Source: Mycobacterium sp. 3519A (GTDB taxonomy: Bacteria > Actinomycetota > Actinomycetes > Mycobacteriales > Mycobacteriaceae). Taken from it: a stretch of DNA of 64,000 nt. The position numbers were made by a program, and so were the translations under genes. The stretch spans positions 186,001 to 250,000 of the forward strand of contig NZ_OESG01000014.1 in NCBI RefSeq assembly GCF_900240945.1, written 5' to 3'. Below, one piece after another: positions 17,810-18,843 of this stretch; the first letter of the stretch is position 1; every line of letters begins with the position of its first letter. A model generated the notes under the pieces. That model searched no databases and had not been told where the DNA came from. It saw only the letters and a list, made by a program, of their open reading frames with translations.

Positions 17810-18843
17810 TGCGCCTGCTGAAGTTCGCCGAACGTTCCTTACCGCTCGAAAATCCGCCGATTTTTCGAGCGGTAAGGAACGTTCGCGCGCGGGGAGTGGG
17901 GGCCCTGCTCGCCGCCGCCCTACTGCTCAGCGCGTGCGGGCAGGGCGCCGCGGTGATCCCGACGCCCGGCGTCACGCTCGCCCCGCCCACGCCGGCCGGG
18001 ATGCAGGAACTGCCACCGCAACCCGCGCGGCCACCGGCGGATGAGGCCGACTGCAATCGCACCGCGAGCCTGCGTCCGTTCAACACCAAGGCCGAAGCCG
18101 ACGCCGCCGTCGCGACCATCCGCAACCGCGGCAGGCTGATCGTCGGACTGGACATCGGCAGCAACCTGTTCTCCTTCCGGGATCCGATCACCGGCGAGAT
18201 CACCGGCTTCGACGTCGACATCGCAGGCGAGATCGCACGCGACATCTTCGGCAGCCCGTCCCAGGTCGAGTACCGCATCCTGTCGTCGGCGGACCGCATC
18301 GCCGCCCTGCAGAACAACCAGGTCGATGTCGTCGTGAAGACCATGACCATCACCTGTGAACGCAAGAAGCAGGTGGGCTTCTCGACGGTGTACCTGAACG
18401 CCAACCAGCGGATCCTGGCCGCGCGGGACTCGTCGATCTCGCGGCCGTCGGACTTGTCGGGTAAGCGGGTGTGTGTGGCGAAGGGTACGACGTCGCTGGA
18501 CCGGATCCAGCAGATCACCCCGCCACCGATCATCGTCGGCGTGGTGACGTGGGCCGACTGCCTGGTCGCGCTGCAGCAGCGCCAGGTCGACGCGGTCAGC
18601 ACCGACGATTCGATACTGGCCGGCCTGGTGAGCCAGGATCCGTACCTGCACATCGTCGGCCCCAGCCTCAACGAGGAGCCCTACGGCATCGGGGTGAACC
18701 TGCAGAACACCGGGCTGGTCCGATTCGTCAACGGCACTCTGGAGCGGATCCGCCGCGACGGCACCTGGTACACGCTGTACCGCAAGTGGTTGACAGTGCT
18801 CGGGCCCGCCCCTGCGCCCCCGGTCGCGAGGTACGTGGACTGA
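17809..18843 (+). CDS. glnH: GlnH, amino-acid-binding lipoprotein of the PknG pathway
   Basis: A 344-residue solute-binding lipoprotein of the glutamine-binding (SBP3) family: [39 protein letters not shown] and GTTSLDR mark the two lobes. It is thought to bind Asp/Glu outside the membrane and pass the signal through GlnX to PknG. I start at the ATG 17809, which shares a base with the glnX stop. The first 28 residues are odd: they contain a 57-base palindromic repeat read as 19 codons (about residues 8-26), just before the hydrophobic signal and lipobox LSAC (Cys43). A GTG at 17896 after the repeat would give a signal without positive charge and has no proper ribosome site. Confidence 0.93.
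17829..17885. repeat. 57-bp palindromic repeat, copy 1, inside the glnH start region
   Basis: A perfect 24-base inverted repeat with a 9-base loop. The left arm (17829-17852) begins CGAACGTTCCTTACCGCTCG and the right arm (17862-17885) is its exact complement. A copy of the same length lies at 33092-33148 with identical outer arms, so this is a dispersed element rather than a chance hairpin. Its length is 19 codons and the glnH frame passes through it without a stop. As RNA it would form a very stable hairpin 20 bases after the glnH ATG. Confidence 0.93.

Follow-up and report, generated by a model that had tools for sequence, protein, structure and literature searches.

A dispersed 57-bp palindrome inserted in glnH of Mycobacterium sp. 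3519A as the probable target of a homing-type nuclease whose gene travels with it

Considered together, our analyses suggest that a 57-bp palindrome near the 5' end of the glnH coding sequence, within a 64,000-nucleotide stretch of the genome of Mycobacterium sp. 3519A (contig NZ_OESG01000014.1; hereafter the window), serves as a target with two half-sites for a dimeric nuclease of the homing type, and that it spreads together with the nuclease gene. Such an arrangement would resemble that of repetitive extragenic palindromes (REPs) and REP-associated tyrosine transposases (RAYTs) while being built on an unrelated enzyme, and we put the probability of this reading at roughly two in three. The palindrome, which we call family A, is dispersed in the genome; its sites are occupied or empty in different species, either by solo palindromes or by a complete form in which palindromes flank a nuclease gene, and the arms follow the lineage of the nuclease.

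The first-pass annotation of the window described a perfect 57-bp palindrome with 24-base arms and a 9-base loop, 20 bases past the glnH ATG, and by coordinates this is exact, the two 24-nt arms (17829-17852 and 17862-17885) being 100% complementary around a 9-nt loop and the element starting 20 bases downstream of the A of the ATG at 17809. It is also as long as 19 codons and free of stops in the glnH frame, as had been claimed, yet it is not codon-aligned; the window GlnH reads MRLLKFA followed by 19 codons of palindrome, which cover about residues 8-26, the n-region of the lipoprotein signal. Since the palindrome is open in two of its three forward frames, the in-frame position is not itself surprising and needs no special selection. 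Allowing up to 3 mismatches, the window contains 4 matches to a single arm, and 100 shuffles contain none. Folding of the palindrome as single-stranded DNA gives -29.6 kcal/mol (shuffle mean -8.5), and the mRNA of the glnH start region folds at -88.1 kcal/mol against -66.8 for shuffles (z -5.5). The consequence for glnH is probably modest, namely a longer n-region and a strong predicted mRNA hairpin 20 nt after the first base of the start codon, through which lowered translation of glnH is plausible and damping of glnH/pknG translation possible. A translation start at GTG 17896 is unlikely: the conserved TGATG start speaks against it, and initiation at 17896 would deprive the signal of a charged n-region. 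Searched with its flanks (77 bases), the palindrome found no match in phage or plasmid collections.

That the palindrome is a dispersed element inserted into glnH, as the annotation proposed, is supported by comparison with other species. We examined 47 glnH loci, the best matches of the searches. The glnX/glnH junction was parsable in 43 of them (in the 4 unparsed loci the protein match to the query starts at residues 29-38), and the palindrome is present at this junction in the window only (1/43), the other 42 being without it; the outcome singled out beforehand as fatal to the proposal, presence of the sequence in all mycobacterial glnH genes, did not appear. Most parsed orthologs keep the upstream TGATG start. 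The most similar GlnH among the matches listed, at 96%, is that of M. sp. ACS1612, whose glnH has an empty site at the same place, exactly 57 bp shorter; the two genes differ by these 57 bp plus one extra codon. This pair of occupied and empty sites indicates that the palindrome inserted into glnH, and its loss in ACS1612 instead of gain in the window would be less parsimonious. At that position the empty site already has CGAACG, the hexamer with which the element begins, and a microhomology-type insertion at this hexamer would be one reading; no clear target duplication was seen at glnH between the window and ACS1612 (net +57), only three clean empty sites being at hand. At the glnX/glnH TGATG junctions of other species (L164, L136, L138, L140, L148, L153 and others) we also observed tandem in-frame repeats, GATGAGCGCTCGCGCGAAGAACAGAC... 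and variants, with at least five of them in M. deserti. These resemble mycobacterial interspersed repetitive units (MIRUs), and unrelated repeats that keep the frame seem to be tolerated at this junction.

A whole-genome search upheld the dispersal of the element: the window genome holds 31 arm matches, 15 forward and 16 reverse (reversed-pattern control 0), made up of 14 two-armed copies, 2 one-armed copies and 1 weak arm. The other two-armed copy in the window, at 33.1 kb, had been described as having identical arms and does lie between genes, its arms being perfect, and identical to the outer part of those of the glnH copy, over 22 bp rather than 24. The family-A element is 57 bp long with CGAACG...CGTTCG ends, and alignment of the 14 two-armed copies gave 38 invariant positions, every one of them in the arms, with a variable loop. 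When placement was determined by frame and stop-codon analysis for the 14 two-armed plus 2 one-armed copies, 15 of the 16 were found 4-27 bp behind the stop codon of a neighbouring gene on either strand (27 bp at L027), the exception being L025, which lies between divergent frames. The glnH copy obeys the same placement with respect to the glnX stop (Table 1) and, owing to the overlap of glnX and glnH, falls inside glnH; no other copy among the 16 lies wholly within an open coding frame. The earlier picture of an element that inserts into coding sequence, comparable to Rickettsia palindromic elements, thus fits glnH itself as an exception, and the likeness is weak because 15/16 copies, the glnH one included, sit behind stop codons; the same placement rules out a Rickettsia-type gene-targeting element as the general rule. 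Both kinds of palindrome are able to sit in frame in genes, but the Rickettsia elements, at about 150 bp, are reported to lie mostly in genes (PMC10969869), whereas those described here are 57 bp and mostly behind stops. At L016 (C13:171232-171288 of the window genome) the frame of the right-hand neighbour enters the palindrome and meets a stop codon inside it, and the palindrome may there supply a gene's last residues and stop.

Within the genus the arm motif, allowing up to 1 mismatch, was found in 20 of 297 genomes. Six of these have at least 5 forward arm matches, namely the window genome (G000), M. sp. ACS1612 (G066), M. elephantis (G068), M. deserti (G202), G208 and G232 (species names, including M. 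sp. OAS707 for G270, are inferred). A scan of named genomes, in which the window's own was perhaps not included, likewise hit mostly M. deserti, M. elephantis and M. sp. ACS1612, with one match each in three other mycobacterial records and one in an Archangiaceae metagenome-assembled genome. In these three species and two further genomes a single nuclease gene lies between two family-A palindromes. At the SDR locus (window 33.1 kb) a solo palindrome in the window corresponds to palindrome-gene-palindrome in G068, G208 and G232, and no hairpin of score 14 or more was found in G027, G011, G039, G065, G270 or G202. At a transglutaminase locus it is ACS1612 that has the complete element, with a solo palindrome in G202 and G011 and an empty site in G000 and G270. 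We compared G000 with G066 at 12 two-armed G000 sites (L027 and L028 left out) and found a same-family palindrome at three (L001, L013, L029), a half-matching one at L020, an other-family palindrome at two (L002 and SDR) and an empty G066 site at three (glnH, L009, L025), L004, L016 and L022 being not interpretable; L016 was dropped as an empty site on account of a local deletion in G066. G270 has no family-A arm at any of the 9 sites located of 10 sought. These differences between species argue that family A is mobile. Palindromes of different families were also seen at the same intergenic site in related species (SDR, where those of G066 and G042 have quite different arms, and L002), with arms as if replaced singly, and mixed palindromes with one family-A arm and one other-family arm occur at L019, at the L020 site in G066 and at L106.

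The product of the flanked gene joins an AbiEi-type domain to a nuclease domain of the Vsr/I-Bth0305I-like (EDxHD homing) type. Its family matches PF18741, AbiEi and DUF559, the nuclease domain matches the fold of the I-Bth0305I/Vsr catalytic domain and the N-terminal half an AbiEi-like fold, although the fold matches also include non-nucleases. E180 and D213 are invariant in the family and E224, D226, H230 and D240 are kept in at least 90%, as candidate counterparts of the conserved E, D, H and D catalytic residues of EDxHD homing endonucleases. A TAL (transcription activator-like) effector chain, the lone weak match in a sequence search of solved structures (E 0.0014), was taken as chance. 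Among 158 genomes a nuclease at least 75% identical to that of M. elephantis occurs only in G066 and G068, which have 13 forward arm matches each, and in G202, G208 and G232, outside those 158 genomes, nuclease and arm matches are both present. The exception is the window genome, where 15 forward family-A arm matches stand beside a nearest nuclease of 69% identity whose own palindromes carry other arms; family A may here be either orphaned or served by this enzyme.

The association of palindrome and nuclease extends to paralogs. The flanks of 60 paralog loci were scanned for hairpins reaching score 12, a few of which are plain terminators; 46/119 flanks had one, compared with 4/472 control windows. 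From a set of 88 paralogs (among the matches listed, from 20 genomes picked for family-A arm matches), 49 are bordered by a palindrome of score 11 or more on one flank at least, and 16 on both flanks; with a tolerant scan (score 12) these numbers are 59 and 28, the control being 2/456 windows. The upstream and downstream palindromes of one gene are alike (similarity 0.26-1.0, 15 genes), while those of genes with less than 50% identity are unlike (782 pairs, median 0.12, none above 0.5). Arm and nuclease similarity are correlated (Mantel r 0.65, 0/2000 permutations; Spearman 0.22) with shared ancestry of the genomes uncontrolled, and the signal is confined to above about 60-70% protein identity; as far as these sequences tell, each nuclease lineage appears to keep its own arms.

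The DNA targets of AbiEi and Rv2827c are pairs of 23-bp inverted repeats (PMC7319586), and the target on which I-Bth0305I forms a dimer is almost 60 bp long (PMC3943268). Two 24-bp arms within 57 bp fit both, and we therefore read the palindrome as a full dimer target. Each 24-bp arm would serve as a half-site, recognised by the AbiEi-like, DNA-binding part of the cognate protein, and a dimer on both half-sites would position the Vsr/EDxHD nuclease domains for a cut. We infer that such binding and cutting is followed by a break repair that would copy the palindromes, with or without the gene, to new sites, mostly just behind stop codons. The complete element, palindrome-nuclease gene-palindrome, would then be a gene that travels with a copy of its own target on either side. 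This form may shrink to a solo palindrome through recombination between the two ends, or the gene may instead have entered a solo palindrome, and solo copies may be mobilised in trans. The glnH palindrome would be one such solo copy, a recent insertion whose position points to the 3' end of glnX as its goal. It would be tolerated thanks to a length, 57, that is divisible by 3, an open frame and a permissive lipoprotein n-region.

Other roles for the palindromes have to be weighed against this proposal. At their own promoters AbiEi and Rv2827c act as repressors by way of 23-bp inverted repeats (PMC7319586), and considering that the N-terminal half of the nucleases is AbiEi-like and that a palindrome often lies upstream of the gene (44/88), the palindromes could be operators through which an autoregulator represses its own gene and a dispersed regulon, with no mobility involved. 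However, palindromes are equally frequent downstream (43/86), family A has one promoter-side copy and 15 behind stop codons, sites are occupied or empty depending on the species, and the nuclease residues are conserved, and we regard such a regulon as unlikely. Bidirectional transcription terminators kept at gene ends would likewise be strong hairpins shortly behind stops, and several of the copies do lie between convergent genes. Termination, however, does not need a fixed arm sequence around a varying loop, the glnH copy begins just past a start codon and has no T run behind it, unrelated-arm palindromes stand at the same site in related species, and the nuclease is left unexplained, all of which renders this role distinctly improbable. 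We also see little prospect for a miniature inverted-repeat transposable element moved by an unidentified transposase, with the nuclease as a passenger or defence gene: the solo and complete forms of a short inverted-repeat element would suit it, but the nuclease takes up the space between the palindromes at two loci with no second gene inside the element, no target duplication is evident at glnH, and it is the lineage of the nuclease that the arm sequences track.

A nuclease that spreads with its palindromic target would not be confined to family A, as several mycobacteria have two or more palindrome families, each paired with a nuclease of its own. Family B repeats the family-A pattern, with a flanked nuclease at C14:2042732-2043559 of the window genome and 36 arm matches there, 33 in G066, 10 in G270 and one each in G068 and G002 (control 0), and none in G202, G011 and G042. 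At L362 in G000 a pair of family-B copies lies 0.9 kb from each other, and this pair was rejected as a complete element, no open reading frame between the two being nuclease-like. Family C comprises its own nuclease plus two other places. A census of 464 kb of the window genome found eight 57-60-bp palindromes with CGA...TCG ends, three of them family A; a further type with CGA-CAGACGCAAA-like arms was seen at C14:387372, 463134 and 577074. Most genomes of the order encode the nuclease family (111 of 121, covering 41 of the 49 genera sampled), and one nuclease query scored 2887 proteins at E 0.001 or better among 7996 candidates. In other genera of the order 12/40 flanks reach score 12, against 3/180 control windows drawn from all 30 loci. 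Outside the genus clear matching palindromes on both sides were seen in 2/20 loci (L316 and L329), several other flank hairpins looking terminator-like by eye and the L328 locus being shorter than the scan assumed. The case is evenly poised for a large undescribed mobile class in Mycobacteriales, in which many parallel families of ~57-bp palindromes, each with its own AbiEi-EDxHD nuclease, would land behind stops, co-diverge with their nucleases, replace each other at sites and give rise to solos by collapse of the complete element.

The earlier naming of GlnH and PknG was confirmed, GlnH matching Pfam SBP_bac_3 and solved GlnH chains and PknG matching PknG_rubred, Pkinase and PknG_TPR; GlnX, for which Pfam gave no match, takes its name from gene position, its stop and the glnH ATG overlapping as TGATG. 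Elsewhere in the window, Rfam at gathering thresholds returned nothing but a thiamine pyrophosphate (TPP) riboswitch at 13628-13736 on the minus strand (RF00059, 59.8 bits), and a perfect 16-bp inverted repeat with an 11-nt loop at 21740-21782 is not of the CGAR...YTCG type.

Table 1. Positions in the window of the family-A palindromes and of the genes around the glnH copy
Feature	Position	Strand	Description
glnX	16490..17809	+	named by position; no Pfam match; stop overlaps glnH ATG
glnH	17809..18843	+	SBP_bac_3 lipoprotein; palindrome within about residues 8-26
family-A palindrome	17829..17885	.	24-bp arms, 9-bp loop; 5' coding part of glnH; 19 bp behind glnX stop
pknG	18843..21098	+	directly downstream of glnH
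solo family-A palindrome	33092..33148	.	22-bp perfect arms; between two convergent genes, 3' end of SDR gene

RAYT genes are flanked by REPs, which are also dispersed as solo copies (PMC2817692), and among the published arrangements that we met this is the closest, although the enzyme is unrelated. Shared with it is a gene between two palindromes that are also dispersed alone in the genome. However, where RAYT (TnpA-REP) is a Y1 (HuH) tyrosine transposase, the enzyme here combines AbiEi and Vsr/EDxHD-like nuclease parts, and in place of REPs of 20-40 bp with a GTAG/CGTC tag (PMC3733652) we find palindromes of about 56-63 bp with CGAR...YTCG ends. With I-Bth0305I and Vsr the nuclease shares the fold of its catalytic domain, and with I-Bth0305I probably a dimer-read target of about 60 bp (PMC3943268); unlike EDxHD homing endonucleases, its gene was seen with no intron or intein and is bordered by its own palindromes, which are also found alone. 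The N-terminal half resembles the AbiEi antitoxin of type IV toxin-antitoxin systems, whose targets are pairs of 23-bp inverted repeats (PMC7319586). In contrast to AbiE, a nuclease-like domain is fused to it and no AbiEii toxin gene lies inside the element at two loci (genes outside it were not examined). In the open-licence PMC literature, a scope that leaves preprints aside, we recognised no description of such palindrome-nuclease elements among the papers listed, and a word search of PMC12306157 gave no mention of mycobacteria, actinobacteria, endonuclease or DUF559.

For Mycobacterium sp. 3519A, our reading accounts for a repeat within the GlnH signal sequence, next to pknG on its upstream side, as a palindrome that landed behind a glnX stop overlapping the glnH start. 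Our proposal offers a testable role for a very common and as yet unassigned family of nuclease proteins, in which a mobile-palindrome system would use a homing-type nuclease in place of a transposase. If true, it would provide a homing-endonuclease-based counterpart of REP/RAYT and a function for many DUF559/REase_MTES_1575 proteins, and the many cognate nuclease-palindrome pairs would form a natural set from which to learn how AbiEi-type domains recognise DNA.
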